This document shows, piece after piece, positions 234 through 21,514 of a stretch of DNA of 24,295 bases (within the stretch, counting starts at the first letter, position 1; each line of letters starts with the position of its first letter). The translations under genes were made by a program, and so were the position numbers. The notes below the pieces were generated by a model that was not told the origin of the DNA, made no database searches, and saw nothing but the letters and a program-made list of their open reading frames with translations. This stretch comes from a virus, in IMG/VR virus record IMGVR_UViG_3300013126_000238, positions 1-24,295 of that record. One strand, written 5' to 3'.

Positions 234-992
234 ATGATATCTTTAAAAAAATTATTAACCGAAGGAACACTAAACGAAGATATCAAAAGAGATATTGATA
301 AGTTTATTGATAAGTTAAACAAACAATTTCCAGACCAAGAATATACTATATCTTCTGGTGGTGGTAAGTATGCAAGAATTACTCACAAAAATAGAAAAGG
401 TGGACAGGAATCTGCTTGGGGATTTATTGCATTAGTTGATAACCCATCTAAAGGTTTTCAAAAAGGAGACCTATTAAAAGCAGCAGGATATAATACACCT
501 GCTAAAACTGCTAGAGGTAATATTCTAAATGGTACTGCAAAATACGATAAGTATTCACCTAAATATTTGAGAGAGGAATTGGTAAATGAAGAAAAGAAAT
601 ACAAAAAAGGTGATAAACTTAAAATCAAATTAAAAAACGGAAAAAAGATTGATGTAGTATTTGATATGTATTCACGTACAAAGGGAGTAGCATTGGGTAA
701 GTTTAAGGATGGAAGTGGAGGATATGATATTAAACCATTTAGTTTAGATACTGTTGTAGAATCAGTAAACGAAGGTAATTGGTCAAAGATTATGGCAGGT
801 GTTAAGAAAGGTTCTCAATCAGGACCTTGGACTATCGTAATAATCCGAAACAAAAAAGTAATACATCAGGAGCCTGTAAAGTATAGAGATGCAATTCCAG
901 CACACTACGAAGATGTAAAGAAGCAATTCAGAAATGGATTTTTAGCAATCGAAGATAATTCAGGTAAAATTGTATATCAAGAAAGAATCTAA
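234..992 (+). CDS. putative internal head protein with capsid-targeting leader, three modules
   Basis: This 252-aa protein is lysine-rich and basic. Its N-terminus MISLKKLLTE-G resembles the capsid-targeting leaders of T4 internal proteins, which gp21 cuts after (L/I)-x-E; that match puts a likely cut after Glu10. Two more sites of this type are visible, LVNE (Glu119) and SVNE (Glu180, followed by Gly). They would divide the mature protein into about 11-119, 120-180 and 181-252. The middle part (KKGDKLKIKLKNGKKIDVVF) looks like a small SH3-like or KOW-like barrel. The last part (WTIVIIRNKKVI to IVYQERI) is a compact alpha/beta segment. It starts one base after the previous stop and overlaps the next gene by one base (TAATG). 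Head localisation is inferred from the leader; no enzymatic function is recognised. Confidence 0.72.
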   Translation: MISLKKLLTEGTLNEDIKRDIDKFIDKLNKQFPDQEYTISSGGGKYARITHKNRKGGQESAWGFIALVDNPSKGFQKGDLLKAAGYNTPAKTARGNILNGTAKYDKYSPKYLREELVNEEKKYKKGDKLKIKLKNGKKIDVVFDMYSRTKGVALGKFKDGSGGYDIKPFSLDTVVESVNEGNWSKIMAGVKKGSQSGPWTIVIIRNKKVIHQEPVKYRDAIPAHYEDVKKQFRNGFLAIEDNSGKIVYQERI

Positions 993-1828
993 TGATACTA
1001 TTAAGAGATATAATGGCCGAAGACCTTCGTAAGTGGTTTGGTAAAGGTAAGACTGGTTCTACTACTGGTGGTGGTTGGGATAGATATAACTCTAAAGGTG
1101 AGAAGGTAGGTAAGTGTGGTGATGGTAAAGCAGGTGATTCATATGCAGCTTGTTTATCAAAAGAAAAAGCAGCTAAGTTAGGACCTGATGGTAGAGCAGC
1201 ATTTGTAAAAAGAAAAAGAGCAGCACAATCTAAAGCAGGAGATGCTAAGAAAGGTGGTGAACAAAAGAAAGGACAAAAACCTACATTTGTAAAGACAGGG
1301 GCTAGTGAGGGTATAAAAGAATCATCAAAAGAGGATATTATAAAAGATTTAGATAAAGTAAAAAATAATTTACTTAAAAAGGTAGACGTATTAGTTGCTA
1401 AGAAAAAGAAACTGTATTCGAATATAGATATAGAGACTCCTATGAGTTCCGATGAAAAGAAATTGGATAAAGATATTGCTGATTTGTTTTCTCAGATAAA
1501 TCAATTGGTTCTTCAAAAAAGAAGTTTAAAAGAAGATTGGTCACAAAAATATAAGAACTCAATTGATTGTAATAATCCAAAAGGATTTTCACAAAAAGCA
1601 CATTGTGCTGGTAAAAAGAAAAACGAAAATATGGCAAGTAAATTAACATTAGAACAAAAAATGGAATTATTCTTAGAAAAGAATTGTCCAACTGACCCAG
1701 CTAAATGGTCAGCATCAAAAGCAGCAGCAAAAAGAAAGTTTGATGTATATCCATCGGCTTATGCAAACGGCTGGGCTGCAAAAAATTACAAATCAAAAGG
1801 TGGTGGCTGGAAAACCTGTAAAGGATAA
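992..1828 (+). CDS. putative internal head polyprotein, DUF5872-like N-terminal module
   Basis: This 278-aa, very Lys/Gly-rich protein starts MILLRDIMAE-D, a capsid-targeting-like leader with a likely cut after Glu10. Residues 11-80 (KCGDGKAGDSYAACLSKEKA, then a basic helix FVKRKRAAQSKAG) resemble the DUF5872-type modules I recall from other phage proteins. Internal gp21-type sites GIKE (Glu110) and SLKE (Glu181) bracket a coiled-coil-like part, 111-181. After these come a Cys module (SIDCNNPKGFSQKAHC, 190-205) and a C-terminal module (KFDVYPSAYANGWAAKNY, about 249-266). Both look like short motifs recurrent in phage virion proteins. I infer a processed precursor giving several small basic peptides inside the head, possibly DNA-binding. 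The start is fixed by the TAATG overlap at 990-994, and the gene overlaps the next one the same way. Confidence 0.72.
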   Translation: MILLRDIMAEDLRKWFGKGKTGSTTGGGWDRYNSKGEKVGKCGDGKAGDSYAACLSKEKAAKLGPDGRAAFVKRKRAAQSKAGDAKKGGEQKKGQKPTFVKTGASEGIKESSKEDIIKDLDKVKNNLLKKVDVLVAKKKKLYSNIDIETPMSSDEKKLDKDIADLFSQINQLVLQKRSLKEDWSQKYKNSIDCNNPKGFSQKAHCAGKKKNENMASKLTLEQKMELFLEKNCPTDPAKWSASKAAAKRKFDVYPSAYANGWAAKNYKSKGGGWKTCKG

Positions 1829-2187
1829 TGATAAAACTTGTAGATATATTAAAAGAATTAAGTATCACTAACTATGTTGGTGAAATTGGTTATTTGTGGC
1901 CATTTGCCGATTCTGAAAATGAAGCTGAAGCTTGGGAAGAATCTAGATTACAAAGCCTATTTAAAGGTTCTTTAAAAGATTGGTCTCCACATCCAACACA
2001 TCCACACAATACTATATTACATCAACATGATATACATCAAACAAATCATTTTAAAGCAGGCCAAGCAAGTGATGAAAAAATAAAAATATCAAAAGGACAT
2101 AAAGTTGTAAAACATTTATATACGCCAAATGAAGTTGATATTTATTTAAACGTAGATTATCAGTTAGACCCTCTAAAAAAATATTAA
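1828..2187 (+). CDS. small protein with capsid-targeting-like leader, His-rich
   Basis: This 119-aa protein begins MIKLVDILKE-L, matching the leader of its neighbours; a gp21-type cut after Glu10 would leave a 109-aa product. The body is not recognised. It has an acidic stretch (ADSENEAEAWEESR) and then a histidine-rich stretch (HPTHPHNTILHQHDIHQTNH, about 52-71) that could bind metal. The C-terminal part, VVKHLYTPNEVDIYLNVDY, is beta-rich. The start codon shares a base with the previous stop (TAATG), so translational coupling is likely. Packaging in the head is an inference from the leader. A motif identical to the candidate late promoter lies inside this gene at 2138-2146. Confidence 0.65.
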   Translation: MIKLVDILKELSITNYVGEIGYLWPFADSENEAEAWEESRLQSLFKGSLKDWSPHPTHPHNTILHQHDIHQTNHFKAGQASDEKIKISKGHKVVKHLYTPNEVDIYLNVDYQLDPLKKY

Positions 2188-2188
2188 A

Positions 2189-2422
2189 ATGATAACCTTA
2201 AAATCGCTACTTAAAGAAGAAAAAGAGTTCATTATATGGGGTGTTCCTCCTGGCGAAAGAGATGAAGTTGTAGCATATACAAAAGCTAAGAGTATGCCTG
2301 AAGCTAAGAAGGTAATGGATATTCTTAAACAAAAGCATGGTTTGACAAAACTAAGAGTACAGGTTATAGACCTTTCACAAACATACGATTTAAAAAAAGC
2401 ATTTAGTAGTACTGTAAGATGA
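2189..2422 (+). CDS. small protein with capsid-targeting-like leader
   Basis: This 77-aa protein begins MITLKSLLKE-E, almost the same as MISLKKLLTE-G of the 234-992 gene. A cut after Glu10 would leave a 67-residue domain. The rest (FIIWGVPPGERDEVVAYTKAKS, then EAKKVMDILKQKHGLTKLRV and QVIDLS) reads as beta-alpha-beta, like a small ferredoxin-like or single alpha/beta domain. No family is recognised. It starts two bases after the previous stop, and its TGA overlaps the next ATG (ATGA at 2419-2422), so all five cargo-like genes form one coupled string. Confidence 0.65.
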   Translation: MITLKSLLKEEKEFIIWGVPPGERDEVVAYTKAKSMPEAKKVMDILKQKHGLTKLRVQVIDLSQTYDLKKAFSSTVR

Positions 2423-3231
2423 TAAACGAATGTATTATTGTATCAAAAGAAGTTGGTGATAAATTTATCCTTGCTAAAAATAGGGATAGAATGTATAATC
2501 CAGAACTTGAAATTGTACACACTATTATAGATGGTGTTGAAGTTGCATATCTACATGATTTAATTACCGATTGGAGTGAAGGATTAAATGAGCATGGTAT
2601 TGGTGTAGTGAATTCAGCATTGCTTGTTGGACATGATGAAGCAGAAGCTAAGATAGTAAAGAAAGGTGGTAAGCCGGGTCCTGATGGTAATAAGATGAGA
2701 AACATTATAAAGCAACCTACACTAATGAAAGCGGTTAGAGCTGCAATATCTTATAAAGGTAGTAGTGGTTTATCTCTTAAAGGTCACACTTTCGTATCAT
2801 CGCCAAAACATTTAATTAGTATTGAAACTACATCAAAACATAAACCTGATGTAAAACTACAAAACTCCGAATCACCAGTTGTTCGTACAAATCATGGGCA
2901 TATGTTCACCGATGCCGGATACACACATGGTGAGAAATACCTATCATCAAAAATGAGAAAGATATCAGCTGAAAAATCAGTTGATAGAGTTGAAGATTGG
3001 AAAGAGATAGCGGCAGCTATGAGAAAAGAGTTTTTCCCAAAAAGACCTCAATTAAATATGAAAAGAGATACATCTGAAATGTCAACATCATCTCAGACAG
3101 TTATGAATCTTACCGATAGAATATTACAAATTACTATTTTTAGAAATAAAATTAAAGAATTTAAAGGTATTACAAACAAACTACCTAAAGATTATCAACC
3201 AAAGATAAAAATTGAAGTGGTAGAAGAATAA
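2419..3231 (+). CDS. putative Ntn-hydrolase (C45/choloylglycine-hydrolase-like)
   Basis: This 270-aa protein carries the pattern of Ntn hydrolases of the C45 acyltransferase and choloylglycine-hydrolase clan. It has a near-N-terminal Cys (Cys5 in MINEC), an NRDR motif (21-24) about 17 residues later, EGLNEHGIGVVNSAL (54-68, like the usual GxNExGL element) and VVRTNHGHMF (154-163, with the TNH typical of C45-like proteins). Such enzymes use the free N-terminal Cys to cleave or transfer amide bonds. Here four residues precede Cys5 and must be removed. The bond Glu4-Cys5 lies in I-N-E, a gp21-type cleavage context. The start is well defined: ATGA overlap with the previous gene and an in-frame TAG at 2407-2409. 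The substrate is unknown. Other readings are a C59 or TANGO2-like protein, or an inactive relative. Confidence 0.6.
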   Translation: MINECIIVSKEVGDKFILAKNRDRMYNPELEIVHTIIDGVEVAYLHDLITDWSEGLNEHGIGVVNSALLVGHDEAEAKIVKKGGKPGPDGNKMRNIIKQPTLMKAVRAAISYKGSSGLSLKGHTFVSSPKHLISIETTSKHKPDVKLQNSESPVVRTNHGHMFTDAGYTHGEKYLSSKMRKISAEKSVDRVEDWKEIAAAMRKEFFPKRPQLNMKRDTSEMSTSSQTVMNLTDRILQITIFRNKIKEFKGITNKLPKDYQPKIKIEVVEE

Positions 3232-3674: not shown

Positions 3675-4897
3675 TGGCAAGAACAACGGATAATTTTACA
3701 AATAATTCAAAAACAGCCGTAAATTATGCTGTGGTTTATAGTGTTATATTAGATAACACTCATCCACGTTATAATAATCCAAGTGATATAGGTGCGGTTG
3801 AATTTAGAAAATGGGATGATTTTAATACACCTGAAGAAAAACTACCATTGGCATATCCATCTAATAAAAATTTTATTGATTTACCACTAAAAAATGAAAA
3901 AGTTGAAATACGAACAATAGAGGGTGTACATTGTTATAGTAGATATATTAAAGATGTTTCGGGAAATAAAAACATTAGTAGTGCTGTAAATGAAATTATG
4001 GCTAGATTTGGAAATGTTACGGATGAAAGAAAAGATATTTCTGAAAGGGATAAGGCCAATCATTTTGCAAACGTAAGTGAAACTCAGATTCCAAGAAGCA
4101 CGTTAGATGGACCAACTGGTACAAATCATAATGGATACGGAAGATTGTTTGTACCTGCAAATATACACCACTTATCACTTAATGATGGTGATACTCTTAT
4201 AGAATCAAGATTTGGACAAAGTATAAGATTATCGGCGTATAATAACCCAAACAGAGCATTTGCCCCAACTATCATAATAAGAAATAGAGAAGCATCATCA
4301 ACACAAATTTTTTCAGCTAAATCTGGTTCTATTACCGAAGATATTAATAGAGATGGTTCTATTATATTTTTAGGTTCAGGTGAGCATGTATTACCATTTA
4401 TTCCTGGTACAATAGATGAAAAAGGAGGAACTGATTTTGCTCAAACTCCAAATTCATTTAAACCGTATCCAACCGAATTAAAGGGTGACCAAATGTTGTT
4501 AAGTAGTGGAAGAATTATTCTATCTGCAAAAAACGCTGAGATGATGTTTTACTCCAAAGGGAATTATGGATTTATATCAGATGCGGGAATGTCAATAGAT
4601 AATAAAGGTGGTATAAATGTAAACGTTGGAGAAGATATACATGTGGTAACAAACAATAGGAACGTAAATATTGTAAGTGGAAATGGTTCGATATTTTTAG
4701 GAAGTAAGGATTTAGAACCTATGGTAAAGGGACAAAAATTAGTTGAAATATTAGCGGAATTAATTGACCAAATAGGTTCGATGATTTTTCTAACCCCATC
4801 AGGTCCAAGTGCTGAAGGTCCAAAAAATTTACCAGAATTTGGAAAAATAAAATCAAAATTAAATGATATTTTGAGTAAAATAAATCAAACAGCATAG
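3674..4897 (+). CDS. baseplate hub spike, gp5-like without lysozyme domain
   Basis: This 407-aa protein looks like the central spike of T4-like baseplates. The N-terminal part (about 14-110) is beta-rich and fits an OB-fold. GDTLIESRFGQSIRLSAY near 172-189 matches the typical GDxLxExRFGxSIR element of T4-like hub proteins. After residue about 270, short beta repeats (LLSSGRIILSAKNAEMMFYS, then FISDAGMSIDNKGGINVNVG, VVTNNRNVNIVS) fit the trimeric beta-helical needle. The C-terminus is a helix plus a Pro/Gly segment. T4 gp5 has a lysozyme inserted between the OB-fold and the helix; no such domain is seen here. Separate muralytic genes lie 0.6-2 kb downstream. It is joined to the gene before by TAATG and to the gene after by a one-base gap. 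Confidence 0.8.
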   Translation: MARTTDNFTNNSKTAVNYAVVYSVILDNTHPRYNNPSDIGAVEFRKWDDFNTPEEKLPLAYPSNKNFIDLPLKNEKVEIRTIEGVHCYSRYIKDVSGNKNISSAVNEIMARFGNVTDERKDISERDKANHFANVSETQIPRSTLDGPTGTNHNGYGRLFVPANIHHLSLNDGDTLIESRFGQSIRLSAYNNPNRAFAPTIIIRNREASSTQIFSAKSGSITEDINRDGSIIFLGSGEHVLPFIPGTIDEKGGTDFAQTPNSFKPYPTELKGDQMLLSSGRIILSAKNAEMMFYSKGNYGFISDAGMSIDNKGGINVNVGEDIHVVTNNRNVNIVSGNGSIFLGSKDLEPMVKGQKLVEILAELIDQIGSMIFLTPSGPSAEGPKNLPEFGKIKSKLNDILSKINQTA

Positions 4898-4898
4898 T

Positions 4899-5456
4899 AT
4901 GGCGGAACAATTAGATAAAGCAAAACAGGCAGGACAAGGACAAATTAAAGGAGCTCTAGGCCAAAATGCTGCAAAAGCAGAAGGATTAGTTAAGGGAGGA
5001 TTGGAAAACGCTTTTAATGGAGGTGCAGCGGCTATTAAACAATTATTAAATGGATTAAAAGATTCATTGGGTATTCCTGATTTACCAAAAATACCAAAAA
5101 AACCAAAATTTCCAGAATTAAAAAAATTTGAACCGAAGAAACCACCAACACCAAAAATTTACGAAAAAGAAGAAAAAAAGTTTGATTACGCACCGGCACC
5201 TGCAGTTCAAAATCCAGTACCAAGAAAACCGGTAACACCAAAGGGAAATTTATCATATAGATATGAATTCACCGATGGTAGAAAACCTAGAATTTCTGTT
5301 TTGTTTTATGAAGGTGATAGATACGTTGATGCAGTAGGTTCATTGGCATTTACGAGTCCAATTAGTGAACAACGTGCGGTAGAGTTATTTATAATAAATA
5401 ATAAGGCAGAGCATCCAAACTTAGAAACTTGGGGAATGCAAAAATTAACTAAATAA
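4899..5456 (+). CDS. Pro/Lys-rich hub-region protein, unknown function
   Basis: This 185-aa protein has three zones. Residues 1-45 are Ala/Gly/Gln-rich and helical (KQAGQGQIKGALGQNAAKAE). Residues 58-105 are a Pro/Lys-rich extended linker (IPKIPKKPKFPELKKFEPKK is typical). Residues 110-185 are a small folded domain (SYRYEFTDGRKPRISVLFYE, then RAVELFIINNKAEHPNLETW). I do not recognise the family. Its place between the spike and the CHAP hydrolase, with one-base spacing on each side, suggests a hub or tail-tip component. The flexible linker would suit an adaptor. It overlaps the next gene by one base (TAATG). Confidence 0.68.
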   Translation: MAEQLDKAKQAGQGQIKGALGQNAAKAEGLVKGGLENAFNGGAAAIKQLLNGLKDSLGIPDLPKIPKKPKFPELKKFEPKKPPTPKIYEKEEKKFDYAPAPAVQNPVPRKPVTPKGNLSYRYEFTDGRKPRISVLFYEGDRYVDAVGSLAFTSPISEQRAVELFIINNKAEHPNLETWGMQKLTK

Positions 5457-6895
5457 TGTCTTGGGAAACTTTTAAACAAAATATACTAAGAGTTGCTAAT
5501 AATCCTGATGGAATACAAAACATTGAAACAATAGCAGATTTATATGCTAATGAGTATGATGCCGCAATAAAAAGAGGGTTCGATACAGTTAATGGTACGA
5601 AGGTTAGAAGTGGTGATGTTGCAACTATGAAACAATTTTTTCTTTCCGCATTACAAAAAGGTTTAACTTCATCTCAACCTTATGATTTAGTTGGAGAAAT
5701 GGGGCAAGGAGTTATAGCGTATTGGAGTACTGCAGTATTAGGTAATGAAGTAGTTCCAGTAACACCAGCAATAGGAGCAACTTCAAATGTATCAGTTATA
5801 TCAAATCTGGTAACAAATCCTGGTATTTGGCAAAGACCCGCAACACAATTGGTGACATCGTTTGAACTAAAACCTAAAGAAAGAATTGAATATCAAGAAA
5901 AATTAGAAACATCTACAGAAAAATATGAACAAGCGGTTGAACAAAAAGAACCAGTAGTAGCAAGTACACATTTAGATGAGATAAATAAATATCAATCAAT
6001 TCTTGAACAAAATGAAAAATATAGAATTGATATACCATATATTCCATCGGAATCATCGAACACAGCTCCTACACAAACACCAACACCTAATCCAACACCA
6101 ACACCTAATCCAACACCAACACCTAGTCCAACACCAACACCTAGTCCAACACCAACACCTAGTCCAACACCAACACCTTCTACAACCATTACAACAACAT
6201 TGCCACCAATAATTGATGCGATAAGAGAAGGAGAAGAAGATGATGATGTAAGAGTAAGTTCTGAAGAAGATATTGTAGTTCAAGGACAATTTAGTGAGGG
6301 CAAACCTTGGAACATAGGATTTAGAGGAGGTCTTGATAGTGGTGGATTTGGAAGTGGTGGGTATAATGTAGCATATGTGCCATTTCCAAATAATTTCCCA
6401 GCAAACGCAAGTTTAGGAACAAAAGCAGTAACAATTGCACTTTATGATTCAGCACAAGGTGTTAAAGAAGTACCTAAAGGTAGTGATACTGGTCATGATA
6501 GAATTAAACAAATGCAAAAAAATGGAACAGGAGGAAGTAAAACAGGATTTCCATGGTGTGCATGTGCAGTAACAACTTGGTGGCAGGAAGCTGGAGTGGT
6601 AATAGCAAATCATGAAAATAAAGCGTATGTTCCAACTTGGGTTACTTGGGCGGTTGCAAATAATAGATTTGTTGATAAGAGAGAAGGAGCAAATCCAACC
6701 TATTTACCAAAACCAGGCGATGCAATAGTTTATGGATGGGGAAGTTTAAATAATGAACATAATGGATTTGACCATATAGGAATGGTATGGAAAGTTGAAA
6801 ATGGTGTTGTATATGGAATTGATGGAAACTTTTCGGATGCGGTTACTACGCATGTTGCGAATCCAAAAACAATAAGGGGATACATTTTAATTTAA
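5456..6895 (+). CDS. tail-associated cell-wall hydrolase with C-terminal CHAP domain
   Basis: This 479-aa modular protein has an N-terminal domain of about 130 residues, typical of a virion protein and containing EMGQGVIAYWSTAVLG. A Gln/Glu-rich helix (150-190) follows, then a Pro-Thr repeat linker (205-243), a 27-residue tag shared with the next gene (266-292), a Gly-rich hinge and a C-terminal CHAP-type amidase/endopeptidase domain (about 320-479). CHAP hallmarks are FPWCACAVTTWW (Cys368 candidate nucleophile), the KPGDAIVYGW strand, GFDHIGMV (His440) and GIDGNF (Asp456 or Asn458 as third residue). It would cut peptidoglycan peptide or amide bonds during DNA entry. There is no signal peptide. 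Location within the hub operon argues for a tail enzyme rather than an endolysin, though an endolysin role cannot be excluded. Six bases separate it from the lysozyme gene. Confidence 0.85.
   Translation: MSWETFKQNILRVANNPDGIQNIETIADLYANEYDAAIKRGFDTVNGTKVRSGDVATMKQFFLSALQKGLTSSQPYDLVGEMGQGVIAYWSTAVLGNEVVPVTPAIGATSNVSVISNLVTNPGIWQRPATQLVTSFELKPKERIEYQEKLETSTEKYEQAVEQKEPVVASTHLDEINKYQSILEQNEKYRIDIPYIPSESSNTAPTQTPTPNPTPTPNPTPTPSPTPTPSPTPTPSPTPTPSTTITTTLPPIIDAIREGEEDDDVRVSSEEDIVVQGQFSEGKPWNIGFRGGLDSGGFGSGGYNVAYVPFPNNFPANASLGTKAVTIALYDSAQGVKEVPKGSDTGHDRIKQMQKNGTGGSKTGFPWCACAVTTWWQEAGVVIANHENKAYVPTWVTWAVANNRFVDKREGANPTYLPKPGDAIVYGWGSLNNEHNGFDHIGMVWKVENGVVYGIDGNFSDAVTTHVANPKTIRGYILI
6080..6178 (+). 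repeat. 18-bp tandem repeat coding for a Pro-Thr linker
   Basis: The unit CCAACACCAACACCTAGT (or ...AAT) is repeated head to tail at 6092-6109, 6110-6127, 6128-6145, 6146-6163 and partly 6164-6178, with a degenerate copy before. In the reading frame each unit gives Pro-Thr-Pro-Thr-Pro-Ser/Asn. The length is a multiple of three, so copy-number change would lengthen or shorten the linker between the N-terminal domain and the tag/CHAP half without a frameshift. Confidence 0.92.
6251..6331 (+). repeat. 81-bp dispersed repeat, copy 1 (shared hydrolase tag)
   Basis: This segment of the CHAP gene matches 7220-7300 of the lysozyme gene at 78 of 81 bases by my alignment. It codes for residues 266-292, with the core SEEDIVVQGQFSEG followed by PWNIGFRGG. 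A Gly/Ser-rich stretch follows in both genes. Confidence 0.92.
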
Positions 6896-6901
6896 CAAAT
6901 T

Positions 6902-7885
6902 ATGTCAGCAATTAATCCAACTCAGAATACGGGTCTAATAGTAGATGAATTTATCAGATATGCAAATGAACATCTTTTAACAATTCAAGGATTGGTTGAT
7001 ACAACATCTATTTTTCCAACTGTACCATCTCCAGTAATTTTACCTGGTAAACTATTTTGGAAAGGATATACGGTTCAACCATCTACTCCATCTAAAGAAT
7101 TGGGAATAGATGATTTTCCTGCAAAAGAAAATGTAGAACCTCAATTTTCAAAACCAGCCACAACTGAAGAACAGGTGTTTGTAGATGGAATACGTGAAGA
7201 TGAAATGGATGAAGAAATTAGAGTAAATTCCGAAGAAGATATTGTAGTTCAAGGACAATTTAGTGAGGGCACACCTTGGAACATAGGATTTAGAGGAGGT
7301 GGAGGTGGTTTTTCGTCTGGATTTACCGGAGCTGTAAATGTAGATTTAGGTAACTTAGATTTAAGTGCAGATTGGATTACACTATCTGCACAATTTATAG
7401 GAAAAAAAGAAGGATTTACTGATAGAGCAACTTGGGATGTAAATGCATATAGATTAGGATTTGGTACTGAAAACATTGTTGGTAGTGATGGTAAAGTAAG
7501 AAAAGTTTTACCAAACCCAGAATATTATAAACAAACTGGAGAAAAGCAACCAGCTAATGGTGATAGAACTACTGTTGAGGCGGCCCTTAAAATGTTACAA
7601 TTTGAAGTTGCTGACACATTTAAGAAAAGATTAGTTGGAAGCGAACCCCAACAAATACCACAGGCAACTTTCGATGCTTTAAATAATAAACAAAAAGCTG
7701 CATGTATAAGTTACGTTTATAATGCTGGTAGTCTTAGATTAGGAATTGCCGATGCAATAAAAGCAAAAAACTTTGCTCTTGCTGCTGCAAAAATTAAAGA
7801 AGGACCGATTACCGATAAATATGGCACGGTTTATAAGGGATTAATAAGAAGAAGGGCTGAAGAAAGTACTATGTTTTCATCATAA
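6902..7885 (+). CDS. tail-associated GH24 (T4-type) lysozyme
   Basis: This 327-aa protein has an N-terminal part (1-100) of unknown fold with Pro-rich stretches. The 27-residue tag shared with the CHAP protein (107-133) follows, then a Gly/Ser hinge and a C-terminal GH24 muramidase domain (about 150-327). The domain has KKEGF with Glu170 in the place of T4 lysozyme Glu11, and Asp179 nine residues later, as Asp20 follows Glu11 in T4. AYRLGFG matches the YYTIGIG strand but carries Arg184 where T4 has Thr26. KAACISYVYNAGS and YKGLIRRRAEESTMF match the usual SFxFNxG and GLxxRRxxE elements. It should cut the glycan backbone of peptidoglycan locally as the tail penetrates. It is last in the hub operon. 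Confidence 0.87.
   Translation: MSAINPTQNTGLIVDEFIRYANEHLLTIQGLVDTTSIFPTVPSPVILPGKLFWKGYTVQPSTPSKELGIDDFPAKENVEPQFSKPATTEEQVFVDGIREDEMDEEIRVNSEEDIVVQGQFSEGTPWNIGFRGGGGGFSSGFTGAVNVDLGNLDLSADWITLSAQFIGKKEGFTDRATWDVNAYRLGFGTENIVGSDGKVRKVLPNPEYYKQTGEKQPANGDRTTVEAALKMLQFEVADTFKKRLVGSEPQQIPQATFDALNNKQKAACISYVYNAGSLRLGIADAIKAKNFALAAAKIKEGPITDKYGTVYKGLIRRRAEESTMFSS
7220..7300 (+). repeat. 81-bp dispersed repeat, copy 2 (shared hydrolase tag)
   Basis: This is the second copy of the 6251-6331 segment, in the same frame, coding for residues 107-133 of the lysozyme. Differences are three single bases, two near the start and one in the codon before the PWNIGFRGG core (Lys in copy 1, Thr in copy 2). Confidence 0.92.
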
Positions 7886-14340: not shown

Positions 14341-17300
14341 ATGGAAAGATTTGAAAATAATTTTAGCTTACCGTCATTTGATACTAATTCATTTGAACAA
14401 ACTGGTGCTGGAATTATAATTGGCGGTGGTGGCTCATTTTTTGGTGATGGTGGTATAACTTCTGGTACTACCACTAATATTCCTGTGTCAAATACTCCAA
14501 ATGCAAATGGTACTATAAATCAAAATCAAAATATTATTGTAAATGTTAAATCAAATGTTGAGGCACAAATTCTAGTTAATTCTGAAAACACATTTAAACT
14601 TACTACTGATAAATTTGATGTTAGTTTTGAAGATTTGCAAAAAAATGGAGCAAAAACTTTTACCGTAAATAAAGATGGATATGTAAGTGATGAAAAATAT
14701 GTTGTTACATTAGAGTATAATCAAAATTTTAACTTTAATGTTATTAATAACATAACTGTTGGAGATAGTCTTTTTGGATATCAAACAAGATTATTACCAG
14801 ATTTTAATATACCTTTTAGTGATACAAATCAACCAATATATTCTTCCGTATCACCATATACATTTAAAATTTATTATTATAAAAAAGAACAATTAATTTC
14901 AGTTATTGATAATTCTACTAGTCAAATTATAGATTTTAATTTTAATTTAGAACAAAAAACACAGGTAGTAACACCAGATGATACAAAAAAAGAAGTTACA
15001 ATTAGAATAAATGTAACGGGTCAATCTGATTCGGTATCTTATATAGGTAGTGATATTAACGCAATATCTCCACTTACTATAAATAAAACATATACCATTA
15101 CCGAACTAATTGGTACTAAAATTAGTATCGCATCAGTAGATAAGAGTAAGTATTTGGTAACAAAGATTGTTGTAACCGATTCAACTGGTATTTCGGAAAC
15201 ATTTACAAATTCAGATAGTGGTATTAGACTTTCGCAGACTGGTAATTCAAGTGCTGTATTAAGTTTAATTGCAGATGATGATTATAAAATTGAAGTTGAA
15301 ACCATAGTTTCTCCGCAAAATACCGTTAAACCTGAAATATCTTTTATAAATCCTGAAATTGGTAAGGAAAAATTTAATATTAATGCAAAATCATCATTAC
15401 CAATTGGTATTAATAAAAACCCCTTAGTTAGTGACCTTTCGGTTTATATAGGAAATGATGTTTTTAAATTTTCTAAATTAGATGATGGAAAAGCAACCGC
15501 AGTAATTGATATACCATTTGATGCTTTTACTAAAATTGGTAGTTATAGAATTATTTTAGTTCCTTCAAGACAAAGAAGAACTGGACAGGCTTTAATTAAC
15601 TTTAATGGACAGGGAGATGGTGATTCTATTGAATTCAATCTAAATGTAGTATCTCAAGCTTGGGTAGGAATACCAGATATAAGAAATATAACTTACCCAT
15701 CTCAATTAGTTGGACCTGATTTTAAAGGTACTGATGTTGATTTTGAAATTTCCTATGATTCGGTTGATACGGATTTTGTTAGAATTTATAACGGTCAGAA
15801 ATATACACAAATTTCAGCAAATGGTAAAGTTAAACTAAATGTTAAACAACTTTTAGAATTAGGTGGTGAAAATATTTCAGAAGATAAAGTAAATATTGTT
15901 TTAAATTTAAAATTAGTACCTTTCAATACAAGTGGGTATGAGACGATTACTGGAAAAGAAGAATTTATAACAATTAAATTTGTTAAAAGTAATTATACAA
16001 TTCCAAGATCAGTTGCAGTAAATAGAATAGCACAGGCTTTAACTTCTCAATTTAATAAAAGTATTTTAAGAGAAGAAAGTTCTAAATATTTATCACATCT
16101 ACTTCATTTTAATAACGGTGATAATAAGTTAGTAACAACATGGACTGGTTCTCAAAATTCAATAATTTTAAAATTATATGAACCACTTCCAACATCCGTA
16201 CAAGTAAATCAACAAGTTTGGATTTCTAAAGCATTAGCAACTCCAATAATTGATACTATACGATTGGTTGGTGATAATATTATTGGATGTAAACCATTAA
16301 AAGGTCCAAACTTTGGCGTAGAGCCTGACAACGGAATAGGGTTTCAAGTCTTTGATGAATTGTTATCTACGGGTTCGTATTCAACAAATTTATTATACAA
16401 CCGATATGTTCAGGATAGTGGAATTGATACAACAAAACTTAATATAACGTATGCTAGTGGTTCTACTTACACATGGGAAAATTTTGTAAACTTTAGTTCG
16501 GGTGAAGAAAGAGTTAATAATTTTCTTTATAAATTAGAAATTTTACAAACTTATATTGAAAAATATGAATTGATAAGTGGGCAATCATATAATGTAGGAA
16601 ACATATTAACGGAAGATGCATTAGGAGCATTGACACCTGAAATTGATGGTGATGAAACTATTATAACCGAAACAAATAATTTTGATATTCAATATGAAAC
16701 TCCAATTTTTTATGGTCAAGATACTATAAATGAACGAGGCACTCTATTGAAAAAAATAAATACAATCATTCAAAACTTTGATGGATTTGAAAGATGGTTA
16801 TACACTTCAACACATTCGTTAGCATATCCAAAACTTTTATTAGAGGGTGAGGATGGTATTTACAGATATTCTTTATACAAATATGATACTGCCCAAGCTG
16901 TAAGTTGGTATAATACGATTTTAGCTTCTGCGGAATATTACGATAGATACAATACAAATTATTTATCTAATAACATTCCACTTTATATTCAAGAGGATTA
17001 TGAAAATAATGATTTCATAGTTTTCTTAGATATGATAGGACAGCATTTTGATATTATTTGGGTTTATATAAACGCATTAAAACAATCTAAAATAATTGAA
17101 GAAAAGCAATATAAAGGAATTGTAGATTCTATTGTAGAACCTGTTTTATCTTCATTTGGTTGGAATCCTAAACGTGCATTTAACACAAACTTCCTTTGGG
17201 AGTATGTTTATGGTACAAATAGAGAAGGTACATCTTTATACTCTATGCCACTTGAACAAGCAAACAACCAAGTGTGGAGAAGAATATTAAACAACTTACC

Positions 17301-19575
17301 GTATATATTAAAACACAAAGGAACGAGTAGGGCCCTAAAAGCTGTTATGGCTTGTTATGGTGTACCACAATCCATGTTAACAATTATGGAATTTGGTGGT
17401 CCGCAAGACCCAACTAAGGGTGGTTCTACTAAATTTACTTTTGATGACAGAACTGCGGCAATATTTTTGACAGGAAGTTTAAATCAAAATGGAAGTTCTA
17501 ACATAAAAGTTCCTTGGCATATAACCGCACAAACAGGTGAACACCCAAATTGTATTGAATTTAGAATTCTTCCATCAAAAATACCAACAAATTATGTAAC
17601 ATTAATTTCGGGAAGCCAATGGGAATTAAATTTGTATAAAACAACTGGTTCTTTTGGAAAATTAGAATTGAACTTTGGGGGTAACGTTGGTACAACACCT
17701 TATATATTGAGTGGAAGTGGTGCGGGGTATCCATATTTTACTTCTTCAATTGAATATGTTTTTGGACCAGATTTGGTGACAGGTAGTATTGATTTTCCAA
17801 TATCAACTGAAAATTATTCAAATGTTTGTATTAACAGGTATAACTATACTGGTGAAAGTTCATTATATGAAGTGTGGTTAGCAACAAGTGATGGTAGACG
17901 AATAACTACATCAGTTAGTATGTCACTTTTAACAATTGACAGTGAATGGGAAAGTGGTTCAACTTTACAAATTGGTGGTAATGGATATGAAGGAAACGTT
18001 GATGAATTTCGTTTATGGGAAGTTCCTTTACAAAGAAGTAAATTTGAAAATCATACATTATTTCCAGATGCAATTAATGGTAACTCATATACTGCATCAA
18101 CAGCGGATTTGGTGTTTAGATTAGATTTTGAGTATCCAAAAAATAGAATCGCAGACCCTTATATTAAAAACGTAGCAATAAATGAAAGTTATGGAGAACC
18201 TTATGCTAGTGCAAGTAATATGTATTCGGCATCGGTTTATCCTTATCAATACACCCCTTACGATAGGACTGTAACGGCTACTGTACCATCTTTGGGATTT
18301 AACTATTCAAACAAAATTAGATTTGAAACACAAACATTAAAAACAAATCTTTCTCACAAAGTTAGAGCAACTGAAAAATCTTTTGATAGAGCTCCAATCG
18401 ATTCAAATCGTATTGGGTTATTCTTCTCTCCAATTAAAGAGTTGAATATGGATATATTAAAGGCGTTTGGTGAGTTCAACATTGATAATTACATAGGAAA
18501 TCCTACGGATGAATATAGAGAAAATTACAAAGATTTAGATGTTTTAAGAAATTATTATTTTGAAAGACTTGAAAGAAACATTTATGAATATATTCAACTA
18601 ATAAAGTATATTGATAAATCTTTATTTGAAGTATTAACTGAACTTACACCAGCAAGAGCGAATGTATCTAAAGGTTTATTAATAGAACCACATTTCTTAG
18701 AGAGAAGTAAAACAAAATGGAATAGACCAGAATCTTTGAGAAATGATTATGAAGTTTATATTGATAATAGACCGAATGATAAAATAGAATTAGAGTATGT
18801 GGTAAAAGAAGGTGAATTAGACGCTAAAAATGTAACAATTTTAAATAGTGATTTAAATAACTATGATGGTGAAGTGGATGCTGAATCTATTACAATATTG
18901 GAAGGAACAAATCCTACTTATGGTGGTACTATCAATTATGATGTTTCAAATATAGCAGAAACTGAATTTCCTACATATCCAAATACGGGTTCGATTAATA
19001 TAGAATGTCCTACTGGTGCTAGTTTATATGGTGAAGTTGATGCATTTTCGGTAGAACAAATTGGTATGGAAAAAAATTCATTAGCTAATTTAGGATATGG
19101 ACTTTATGCAAAAAGAGGAAATTCTATTTTTAGAAGATATGATGAAACTTTTGGAAATTTAGAAACAACTGGTAGTAGGGTTAGTGCTTTCTTAGTTAAA
19201 GAAACAAAAGCTAAAAAGAAAAAAGTACAAACAGGTGGGTATCCAGCAACAACATCTGGTCCTATAAAATATTCTACTTTAACAACATACGAAGATAAAT
19301 ACTATGTATCGTTGCTACCTTTTAGTGGTAGTATTTCAGTTGGTAATGATATAGTTCAGGTAACTGCTATACATGGTTATCTTCCTACACACTATAAATT
19401 TGTAAATGGATTGGGTGAAGGATTACAACGTTCATACTTTAAGGGTTCAAAACAAACTGCAGCAACAACACCAGATGGTTTGGATCCTGTAGAAACATTT
19501 ACAACTAATCCTAACATTCTTAGAGTGGCTAAAACAGGTAGAGGTAGTGGTGAACCAATACTTGAAGTTGACTAA
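14341..19575 (+). CDS. giant baseplate wedge protein (gp7-like by position) with LamG-like domain
   Basis: This 1744-aa protein is far longer than T4 gp7 (1032 aa). The N-terminus is Gly-rich (GAGIIIGGGGSFFGDGG). Residues 50-540 are serial Ig-like or other beta-sandwich modules. A conserved-looking core follows, 554-1010, including LSHLLHFNNGDNKL, WNPKRAFNTNFLWEYVYGTN and NNLPYILKHKGTSRALKAVM then ACYGVP. The latter resembles the KHKGTxxA element of wedge or tail-protein-I-like proteins. A LamG/concanavalin-like domain sits at about 1030-1260 (FRILPSKIPTNYVTLISGS, then NVDEFRLWEVPL). Short internal repeats occur near 1490-1570. I infer a wedge initiator with added surface domains, perhaps glycan-binding. 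A gp10-like or fibre-anchor role is possible. There is no frameshift or stop through 5.2 kb. Confidence 0.75.
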   Translation: MERFENNFSLPSFDTNSFEQTGAGIIIGGGGSFFGDGGITSGTTTNIPVSNTPNANGTINQNQNIIVNVKSNVEAQILVNSENTFKLTTDKFDVSFEDLQKNGAKTFTVNKDGYVSDEKYVVTLEYNQNFNFNVINNITVGDSLFGYQTRLLPDFNIPFSDTNQPIYSSVSPYTFKIYYYKKEQLISVIDNSTSQIIDFNFNLEQKTQVVTPDDTKKEVTIRINVTGQSDSVSYIGSDINAISPLTINKTYTITELIGTKISIASVDKSKYLVTKIVVTDSTGISETFTNSDSGIRLSQTGNSSAVLSLIADDDYKIEVETIVSPQNTVKPEISFINPEIGKEKFNINAKSSLPIGINKNPLVSDLSVYIGNDVFKFSKLDDGKATAVIDIPFDAFTKIGSYRIILVPSRQRRTGQALINFNGQGDGDSIEFNLNVVSQAWVGIPDIRNITYPSQLVGPDFKGTDVDFEISYDSVDTDFVRIYNGQKYTQISANGKVKLNVKQLLELGGENISEDKVNIVLNLKLVPFNTSGYETITGKEEFITIKFVKSNYTIPRSVAVNRIAQALTSQFNKSILREESSKYLSHLLHFNNGDNKLVTTWTGSQNSIILKLYEPLPTSVQVNQQVWISKALATPIIDTIRLVGDNIIGCKPLKGPNFGVEPDNGIGFQVFDELLSTGSYSTNLLYNRYVQDSGIDTTKLNITYASGSTYTWENFVNFSSGEERVNNFLYKLEILQTYIEKYELISGQSYNVGNILTEDALGALTPEIDGDETIITETNNFDIQYETPIFYGQDTINERGTLLKKINTIIQNFDGFERWLYTSTHSLAYPKLLLEGEDGIYRYSLYKYDTAQAVSWYNTILASAEYYDRYNTNYLSNNIPLYIQEDYENNDFIVFLDMIGQHFDIIWVYINALKQSKIIEEKQYKGIVDSIVEPVLSSFGWNPKRAFNTNFLWEYVYGTNREGTSLYSMPLEQANNQVWRRILNNLPYILKHKGTSRALKAVMACYGVPQSMLTIMEFGGPQDPTKGGSTKFTFDDRTAAIFLTGSLNQNGSSNIKVPWHITAQTGEHPNCIEFRILPSKIPTNYVTLISGSQWELNLYKTTGSFGKLELNFGGNVGTTPYILSGSGAGYPYFTSSIEYVFGPDLVTGSIDFPISTENYSNVCINRYNYTGESSLYEVWLATSDGRRITTSVSMSLLTIDSEWESGSTLQIGGNGYEGNVDEFRLWEVPLQRSKFENHTLFPDAINGNSYTASTADLVFRLDFEYPKNRIADPYIKNVAINESYGEPYASASNMYSASVYPYQYTPYDRTVTATVPSLGFNYSNKIRFETQTLKTNLSHKVRATEKSFDRAPIDSNRIGLFFSPIKELNMDILKAFGEFNIDNYIGNPTDEYRENYKDLDVLRNYYFERLERNIYEYIQLIKYIDKSLFEVLTELTPARANVSKGLLIEPHFLERSKTKWNRPESLRNDYEVYIDNRPNDKIELEYVVKEGELDAKNVTILNSDLNNYDGEVDAESITILEGTNPTYGGTINYDVSNIAETEFPTYPNTGSINIECPTGASLYGEVDAFSVEQIGMEKNSLANLGYGLYAKRGNSIFRRYDETFGNLETTGSRVSAFLVKETKAKKKKVQTGGYPATTSGPIKYSTLTTYEDKYYVSLLPFSGSISVGNDIVQVTAIHGYLPTHYKFVNGLGEGLQRSYFKGSKQTAATTPDGLDPVETFTTNPNILRVAKTGRGSGEPILEVD

Positions 19576-19596
19576 GATTGAAAATACTAAATGGTT

Positions 19597-19605
19597 ATAT
19601 TTATT
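19597..19605 (+). promoter_or_regulatory. candidate late promoter element ATATTTATT
   Basis: It lies in the 60-base gap after the giant wedge gene, ending 30 bases before the ATG at 19636. It is the third of five gap copies of the motif. No hairpin terminator is seen between the giant gene and this motif. Confidence 0.5.
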
Positions 19606-19635
19606 TTAGAAATAAAAGCATAAAAACAATATCAA

Positions 19636-20259
19636 ATGGCATATTTAGATAATACCGAAATTACCGTAGATGCAATCCTTACCAAAAAAGGTAGACAAAA
19701 ATTGGCATCTGGTCAATCTTTAAACATCACCAAATTTGCTTTGGGAGATGACGAAATTGATTACACATTATATGAACCAGCGCACCCAAAGGGTTCTGCG
19801 TTTTATGATTCTGCAATCAGAGCAATTCCTATTACAGAAGCATCACCAGATGAAACTCAAGTATTGAGATACAAATTGGTAACTCTTCCAAAAGGAACTA
19901 CTCTAATCCCAACCGTAAGATTGGGTGTACCTTCAATCTCTGTAAATCAAACTGAAGGTGGTGTTGCATTGTTACCAACTACATCGCCAGCTGGAAACGG
20001 AAATGCTGGATACACTGTTGTATTAGCAGACCAAAGAGCTGGAACATTGACAGTAGTAAGAGGTGCTACTGCAACTGGTACAGTACCTGTATTCTTAGGT
20101 GAAGAAATTACAACAACTGCACAAGTGGTTAGTGGTTTAGAATTCAGATTCACTCCAAATCCAAACTTAACAATTAATGTAGCAACTACATTGACAGTTT
20201 ATGGTAACGAAACCGGAGGGTCACAAACTATACCTGTGACTGTAACTTATAAAGCATAA
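19636..20259 (+). CDS. conserved phage virion structural protein
   Basis: In this 207-aa protein, the N-terminal 60 residues (AYLDNTEITVDAILTKKGRQ, then KLASGQSLNITKFALGDDEI and DYTLYEP) match a widespread pattern of T4-like structural proteins: a DAxLTxxGRxxLA helix followed by a FALGDDEIDY segment. Residues 90-207 form a beta-rich, Gly/Thr-rich domain, probably Ig-like (RAGTLTVVRGATATGTVPVF, then TINVATTLTVYGNE). The exact role in the virion is not known to me. It leads a unit with the next gene, 13 bases downstream. Its codons look less AT-skewed than those of the giant gene, which would suit high expression. Confidence 0.75.
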   Translation: MAYLDNTEITVDAILTKKGRQKLASGQSLNITKFALGDDEIDYTLYEPAHPKGSAFYDSAIRAIPITEASPDETQVLRYKLVTLPKGTTLIPTVRLGVPSISVNQTEGGVALLPTTSPAGNGNAGYTVVLADQRAGTLTVVRGATATGTVPVFLGEEITTTAQVVSGLEFRFTPNPNLTINVATTLTVYGNETGGSQTIPVTVTYKA

Positions 20260-20272
20260 AAAGAAATAAAAA

Positions 20273-21514
20273 ATGGCACTAATTAATGACCCTAACGTAA
20301 CCGCCCAGATAGCCGCATTAGCTAATTCTGGTACGGTTGATACAAATCAGATAGTATCACTTCTTAATAGTGTATTACCTGCAGGCCAACAAATTGCAAC
20401 AAATACTTCTGGTATTACAACCGGTATTTATAAAAGATTTGGTGATTTTGATAAGGTGAACGCAAAAATAGAAGTTGTTACAACTGGTCTTTGGACTGGA
20501 GATTCTGGTTCTTTAACACAATTTTTTACATCATCTGCACAATCAATTGCACAAAGCGGATATTACTATGCTAACGTATATGATTATAGTCCAGCAACGT
20601 ATTCAGATTCAGCAGAAGTTCAATTTGCAATTGCATATGGACATCTAAATGGAAGTGGTTCTATGAACTTAGCAGATAATGATTCTGCTCTTTTAGCAAC
20701 AAAAGCAACATACGCACAATATAAAGCTATGCTGTTAGAACCAACTGATACTAAATTTTCATTTGAAAATTCAGCTGGTACTTTGACAGACGCAAATTCA
20801 CTTTATTTTATTAACATCGCAAGAGGCCGTTATAGAGAGAAAATGGATCCGGGTAACTGGTCATTGAAACTACAAGGTTCAAACGGTACATTCACATTTA
20901 TTGACAATAGTGGTAAGAAATTTGGTGATGATTTAGGATTGAGTGGAAGGACATTTAAAGTTGTTTCTGGTTCTTTAAACTTAGGAACTGAAAACGAAGC
21001 AACTATTAAAACCCCAACTGGTTCTAATGGAGAAGGATTAGGATTATTTTATCCTGATAGAGGAATTATCGTTCTTAACGCAGACGCAGTTGCATCGGTT
21101 GTAGGAAACTTAGTTGCTACTGAAACTATCTACACTAAAGATGGTAACTATCTAATGAGTGGAAGTTTAGCTGGTAATTTGGCACAAGATAGAGAGCAAT
21201 TCAACCAATATAGATTACTTTCCGCAATAAAGTTTGGTGGCGATTTTGAAGCACGTAGAACTGAAAATATCTCTACTCAACATTTCTTTGTTAGAGCAAC
21301 AAATAGAGAGTTTAACTATTCAAACAATCCTACTTATGTGGATACTGATGGCGCATTTGTAGAAACAACATTTGAAACTGACCCACAAACTTACGTTACA
21401 ACTGTAGGTTTATACAATGATTCAAATGAATGTGTTGCAGTAGCTAAAACTTCTCAACCAATTGTAAAATCATTTGATAAAGAAATATTAATCAAAGTTA
21501 AACTTTCATTCTAA
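20273..21514 (+). CDS. virion structural protein, paralogue of the 21602 gene
   Basis: This 413-aa protein is beta-rich. N-terminal helices (1-50) are followed by repeated strand-turn units (ANVYDYSPATYSDSAEVQFA, RGRYREKMDPGNWSLKLQGS). The C-terminal third holds blocks also present in the 21602 gene: LFYPDRGIIVL, FVRATNREFNYSNNP and VTTVGLYNDSNECVAVAKTS before QPI. I recall this kind of ending in T4-like phage structural proteins but cannot assign sheath, tube or fibre with confidence. It is followed by a strong intrinsic terminator, so the 19636-20273 pair is a discrete unit, as expected for abundant virion proteins. Confidence 0.75.
   Translation: MALINDPNVTAQIAALANSGTVDTNQIVSLLNSVLPAGQQIATNTSGITTGIYKRFGDFDKVNAKIEVVTTGLWTGDSGSLTQFFTSSAQSIAQSGYYYANVYDYSPATYSDSAEVQFAIAYGHLNGSGSMNLADNDSALLATKATYAQYKAMLLEPTDTKFSFENSAGTLTDANSLYFINIARGRYREKMDPGNWSLKLQGSNGTFTFIDNSGKKFGDDLGLSGRTFKVVSGSLNLGTENEATIKTPTGSNGEGLGLFYPDRGIIVLNADAVASVVGNLVATETIYTKDGNYLMSGSLAGNLAQDREQFNQYRLLSAIKFGGDFEARRTENISTQHFFVRATNREFNYSNNPTYVDTDGAFVETTFETDPQTYVTTVGLYNDSNECVAVAKTSQPIVKSFDKEILIKVKLSF

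Follow-up and report, generated by a model that had tools for sequence, protein, structure and literature searches.

According to a review of L. Black's work (PMC9026906), the first ten residues of the internal head proteins of bacteriophage T4 are enough for targeting to the head; targeting depends mainly on residues 4 and 7 of this leader and processing on residues 8 and 10, and L/I-x-E is the motif behind which the prohead protease gp21 cuts. The internal proteins IPII and IPIII both start with MKTYQEFIAE|A (T4 record; the bar marks the cut), and among the T4 cargo of this position are IPI, an anti-restriction protein, and Alt, an ADP-ribosyltransferase. In phages phiKZ and SPN3US, many head-interior proteins are cut after a short x-x-E motif by the gp21-like protease gp175/gp245, as described in passages of PMC10052503. 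Polyvalent proteins of phages and conjugative elements are a further system with comparable features; Iyer et al. (2017, PMC5512222) attribute the separation of their domains to a metallopeptidase domain embedded in the chain.

The window, that is the whole stretch of DNA analysed here, is a 24,295-base IMG/VR fragment of an uncultured freshwater phage of the contractile-tail T4-like type, in which five small genes are followed by baseplate and tail genes. In genes 1 to 4 the stop and start codons of neighbours overlap or abut, and the start of gene 5 overlaps the stop of gene 4. About 300 loci came from searches of viral contigs that used genes 1, 2 and 5 and the gp6-like baseplate protein as queries; the reading of long sequences covered nine contigs or genomes, among them G001 (168 kb) and the genome of the Microcystis phage Mel-JY01 (190 kb). 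By the baseplate protein, Mel-JY01 and the Flavobacterium phage immuto are cultured relatives at about 40% identity. Cyanophages and Methylophilales phages likewise contain cargo modules of the window, Bellamy having MKSFKQFQESWSNKYKKSIDC, for example. We regard it as likely that the five genes form a head-cargo locus of a T4-like phage, with targeting to the prohead, cutting inside the head, activation of gene 5 and delivery to the host as successive steps. Judged by the defining sequence features, which are present, the locus would work like the internal-protein cargo of T4, cargo polyproteins being the difference.

The original prediction was that four consecutive genes share a leader resembling the T4 capsid-targeting sequence (CTS), and the four leaders were recovered exactly, all on the plus strand: MISLKKLLTE (234..263) in the open reading frame at 234-992, MILLRDIMAE (992..1021) in that at 992-1828, MIKLVDILKE (1828..1857) in that at 1828-2187 and MITLKSLLKE (2189..2218) in that at 2189-2422. 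For the first of them, the reading frame and the leader statistics place the predicted cut after E10 and before GTLNE. Among the 23 plus-strand genes called in the window, the pattern M-x2-[LIFVM]-x2-[LIFVM]2-x-E occurs in genes 1 to 4 only, and across the window and more than 300 related sequences it was found at 117 of 2,727 gene starts versus 15 of 12,721 internal methionines. The odds ratio is 38 and p is about 1e-71, a nominal p-value, the sequences being related.

The window leaders have the length and register of the IPII and IPIII leader, with hydrophobic residues at positions 4, 7 and 8 and Glu at position 10, and they precede otherwise unrelated bodies, as in T4; the resemblance to the T4 signal is thereby borne out at the positions that matter there (PMC9026906). 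The two differ in that the window leader is of the MIKLK type as opposed to MKTYQ, and that at P1' the leader genes often have D, E or L, hence a frequently acidic residue, where IPII and IPIII have A, which may mean slower cutting. In addition, the window group has several modules per protein, internal cut motifs and many more cargo families than the T4 proteins. The protease and capsid genes are absent from the 24,295-base fragment and are deduced from relatives, among which Peptidase_S77 (gp21) was found in 9 of 19 records and the Gp23 capsid protein in 5 of 19. A single 61-kb contig of the close relative G005 carries tagged genes (4354-6501), the protease gene (55408-55881) and the Gp23 gene (60329 to the contig end); this capsid gene ends with the contig, and the capsid cut site is taken from other relatives, whose capsid proteins have Q[LI][LIV]xE|A at residues 60-61, aligned to FLTE65|A66 of T4 gp23. 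The relatives also keep the T4 order of portal, protease, scaffold and capsid protein. Comparison of the tagged proteins with the prohead protease and the capsid site thus agrees, at the level of sequence, with a gp21-type system, S77 and Gp23 being present in relatives and [LIV]xE|A standing at the capsid site. An experimental link that is indirect, one step away from the window proteins, comes from the cytidylyltransferase T4-GC190, a tagged protein starting with MKKFSAFLNE|AERS, which a passage of PMC3037559 gives as found in the S-SM1 virion by mass spectrometry.

Behind the leader, genes 1 and 2 (all features on the plus strand) divide into modules whose borders carry the same motif. In gene 1, module A (residues 11-119; 264..590) ends with LVNE at a predicted cut E119|E120; it has a weak DUF7717/phrog_5014 match and is about 93% identical to relatives up to LVNE, where a different module comes next. 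Module B (residues 120-180; 591..773) ends with ESVNE at a predicted cut E180|G181, and module C (GNWSKIMAGV...; 774..992), whose predicted folded part begins at about residue 183, exists in relatives as a tagged gene of its own (MIKLKQLLTE|GKWSKIM, MISLQSLLME|GKNWSKMM). The structure model of gene 1, built from only 8 sequences with a pLDDT of 56, is ordered at residues 13-83 and 183-252, while 1-12 and 103-181 come out disordered, with low confidence over 103-181; this hints at a joint at 180|181 and at disordered leader and joint regions. Gene 2 begins with a DLRKWFGKG... module (1022..1321), widespread in phages and stand-alone with leader in relatives, which ends with SEGIKE at a predicted cut E110|S111. 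It is followed by the module SSKEDIIKDLDKVKN... (1322..1534), which ends with RSLKE at a predicted cut E181|D182 and stands directly behind the leader in L256 (MIKLKNILKE|ATTSDIIKDLDK), and by the module DWSQKYKNSIDCNNPKGFSQKAHC..., continuing into the DUF5872/phrog_27331-like KFDVYPSAYANGWAAKNYK (1535..1828 together), which stands directly behind the leader in L249 (MIKLTDIINE|KWSQKYKRSIDCNNP). Seven homologues of gene 2 modules (L302 6001 and others) start with MNE|DLNKWFK, keeping M-x-E without a targeting leader.

The window joints SVNE|G in gene 1 and GIKE|S and SLKE|D in gene 2 belong to a general pattern. A comparison of the 60 residues next to the leader with all proteins showed that bodies which follow the leader in one phage recur inside longer proteins of others, giving 100 non-redundant internal joints from 15 module families and 77 proteins. 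Glu directly precedes the module in 82 of these joints and [LIVMF]xE in 70, at least one LxE joint being present in 14 of the 15 families, while at offsets other than the module border [LIVMF]xE occurs in 0-11%; because the sequences are related, p-values for these counts are nominal. As a control, the N-termini of proteins without leader were searched in the same way, and of 314 places 17 had Glu and one had LxE. Glu is missing from about 18% of the joints, which come mostly from a single merged zinc-ribbon/CWxGYKQVG cluster whose border is hard to place, and a strict leader stands at the start of only 33 of the 77 proteins with joints.

The bodies past residue 10 had been described as unrelated, which holds for whole proteins, but genes 1 and 2 are put together from modules also found elsewhere; likewise, the row of small unrelated products is indeed tagged, but two of the four are multi-module proteins with internal cut motifs. 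Genes 3 and 4 have single bodies, of 109 amino acids with no family match (1858..2187) and of 67 amino acids starting with EKEFIIWGVPPGERDE... (2219..2422), respectively, for neither of which Pfam, PHROGs or NCBIfam gave a function; the gene 4 body is an internal module in L020, after TITLKSFLKE. Pfam found no peptidase domain in genes 1 to 4, and cutting of genes 1 and 2 would probably be in trans, inside the head. On sequence grounds, both genes thus appear to encode cargo polyproteins that the prohead protease would cut in trans. They share with polyvalent proteins the presence of unrelated small domains on one chain, a place among phage late genes and likely delivery with the DNA (PMC5512222), and, with 15 module families, 100 joints and 77 proteins, also the recombination of several unrelated domains per chain between phages; they differ in that their joints bear the prohead-protease motif and that the Pfam search of genes 1 and 2 returned no peptidase. 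In SPN3US, by contrast, the mapped cuts remove propeptides, and the passages of PMC10052503 do not describe a separation of functional modules.

Multi-module architecture is most pronounced in relatives, where giant proteins of 800-1566 amino acids lie near the head module (G001 90097-94569; G002 16030-20730; G003 17269-20433; G005 45764-48580). They have a tag-like start xLxxFLVE and contain cytidylyltransferase/NMNAT-like, GNAT-like, zinc-ribbon-like and further modules with LxE joints, and they are an extreme case of multi-module joints. A tagged 469-amino-acid protein in L020 (1589-2998; MIKLSNLLNE...) has a weak match to the DHH-family phosphoesterases (E 4e-4, below the Pfam cut-off) and is a candidate for a packaged nucleotide-cleaving enzyme.

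Packaging and cutting could also serve the head itself, if the tagged proteins were core or scaffold parts like T4 gp67, gp68 and gp22 and not effectors delivered to the host. Some tagged proteins do lie in the head module beside the protease and scaffold genes (G002 4264-6980), and cutting of the T4 core proteins yields multiple fragments (PMC9026906). However, the slot upstream of gene 5, which holds tagged genes with differing bodies in 39 of 64 loci, has a content that is hypervariable between close relatives, unlike structural cores, and bodies in relatives that include cytidylyltransferase, GNAT-like and DHH-like domains, together with the adjoining Ntn-hydrolase, look like enzymes. We therefore consider a purely structural role unlikely and favour delivered cargo.

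The locus had been proposed to consist of four genes; these are as claimed, but one more gene belongs to it (gene 5, 2419-3231), which lacks the ten-residue leader and has the cut motif MINE|C. Its MINE prepeptide (2419..2430, plus strand; predicted cut INE|C) precedes a predicted Ntn-hydrolase of the C45/NAAA/AAT-like type with Cys5 as nucleophile (2431..3231, plus strand). The gene 5 model has a pLDDT of 85.4, and among its Foldseek matches acyl-CoA:isopenicillin N acyltransferase comes first (E 7e-9); a second structure alignment gave CV2077 (Z 19.7), NAAA (Z 19.4) and bile salt hydrolases, with residue 5 placed on the catalytic N-terminal cysteine of these enzymes. Gene 5 is thus predicted to be an Ntn-hydrolase, the modelled fold bringing its cysteine onto the N-terminal nucleophile. 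With 25.3 bits against a cut-off of 85, it is a distant relative and not a filed member of the NCBI family NF040521.

The residue C5 is invariant in an alignment of 23 sequences, and the cysteine is preceded by [LIVM]xE in 43 of 44 distinct gene 5 homologues, the remaining one having M|C. Homologues start with MINE, MKLSE, MKLKE, MKKILSE and others, so that the length and sequence of the start vary but the motif before the cysteine stays constant, which fits activation that depends on a protease. The motif and the modelled fold together suggest that a cut by the prohead protease could activate gene 5. From the described C45/NAAA/AAT enzymes, with which it shares the fold and the position of the cysteine in the model, gene 5 differs in its very short prepeptide ending in [LIVM]xE, its low NCBIfam score and the proposed activation by a phage protease. 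Self-cleavage is common among Ntn-hydrolases of this class, and the INE|C cut may be autocatalytic.

The gene 5 motif also bears on the view that the leader is an uncut docking tag to another part of the virion, such as baseplate or tail, and that the LxE found at module borders is no more than a usual feature of linkers. The baseplate and tail genes lie directly downstream of the locus, as would suit such a tag, but LxE|C is the rule in a hydrolase that needs a free N-terminal cysteine, [LIV]xE|A in the capsid proteins points to a cut, and LxE was seen in only one of the 314 control joints. Conservation moreover falls sharply past E10: for 85 distinct starts of the MI type, with the consensus MIKLK[DNS][IL]L[KN]E, the information is 1.2-3.9 bits at residues 2-10, 0.9 at residue 11 and 0.3-0.7 beyond. 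An uncut tag is improbable on this evidence, which is better explained by a leader that is removed.

Positions 3, 5, 6 and 9 of the leader are conserved too, although they lie outside the selection pattern, and the bodies behind it fall into about 41 clusters. For 67 distinct MI-type leader peptides there are 86 distinct DNA sequences, and since synonymous changes occur at conserved residues, the leader peptide is under selection and not freshly copied DNA. That the shared start simply reflects recent gene duplication or a translation-initiation element, as adjacent genes with overlapping or abutting stop and start codons might suggest, is scarcely credible given unrelated bodies, synonymous differences between leaders, conserved positions that keep the register of the T4 signal and a cut motif that recurs internally at joints.

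For the head-cargo reading, we infer targeting, cutting, polyprotein processing in the head, gene 5 activation, injection and any anti-defence role. Going by the exact register match, the ten-residue leader would serve as a capsid-targeting sequence and bind to the scaffold core during prohead assembly. A gp21-type S77 protease would then cut after [LIVMF]-x-E, removing the leader and, at the internal motif copies of genes 1 and 2, releasing several separate small cargo proteins from each translation product, as the motif, the capsid site and the protease gene in relatives suggest. The same protease would trim MINE off the neighbouring Ntn-hydrolase and expose its catalytic N-terminal cysteine, so that the enzyme would be active only in the maturing head; position, conserved motif and predicted fold argue for this step. 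If it behaves like T4 IPI and Alt, the cargo so released would leave the head with the DNA and act early in the host, and the cargo slot would be rapidly re-stocked through module swaps at the cut sites.

A search of the open literature, with subscription papers mostly outside it, returned no description of trans-processed cargo polyproteins or of prohead activation of an Ntn-hydrolase. The wider proposition, that freshwater T4-like phages carry modular cargo polyproteins cut in trans in the prohead into host-delivered proteins, with the cut also activating a packaged hydrolase and with quick module swapping, seems to us evenly balanced between true and false. If true, the [LIVMF]xE rule would allow candidate injected proteins, each with its predicted mature N-terminus, to be listed from genome sequence for an abundant and almost wholly uncultured phage group, including many families without function today. 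It would also mean that a DNA phage can produce its cargo as polyproteins for the capsid protease to process, and that it can hold back the activity of an enzyme until the enzyme is in the head.

Several related N-termini were observed beside the main leader type. A conserved gene of 90 amino acids in the same slot (e.g. L016, L020, L021, L036) starts with MIKLTQLNE|AxE, a nine-residue leader variant, and a gene of 104 amino acids in the slot upstream of gene 5 starts with MIKLMGIVTGKP, without Glu. Other recurrent N-termini on unrelated proteins occur in immuto (L307, e.g. 4294, 4880, 15188) and in the head modules of G001 and G002; MKKSQLRxIIKE, MKITKxxxKxIVREVLTE and MENFDLKKFLVENK may be further leader types. 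In Mel-JY01 (W01, 60276-62718), three nearby genes combine a leader of the MIKLxSLLxE type with a related SDRVWHxT body and adjoin DNA polymerase and helicase genes, not head genes. By eye these proteins (SDRVWHLT...) had been considered as ADP-ribosyltransferases, for which family and structure searches gave no support, the weak PDB matches (E 0.016 or worse) being to an unrelated kind of protein and taken as chance.

Sharing of sequence between genes was also seen further downstream in the window, where the CHAP endolysin-like gene (5456-6895), which has a long PTP-rich repeat as well, and the lysozyme-like gene (6902-7885) have in common a near-identical block, RVxSEEDIVVQGQFSEGxPWNIGFRGG, at about 6227-6356 and 7169-7312, followed by unrelated catalytic domains.
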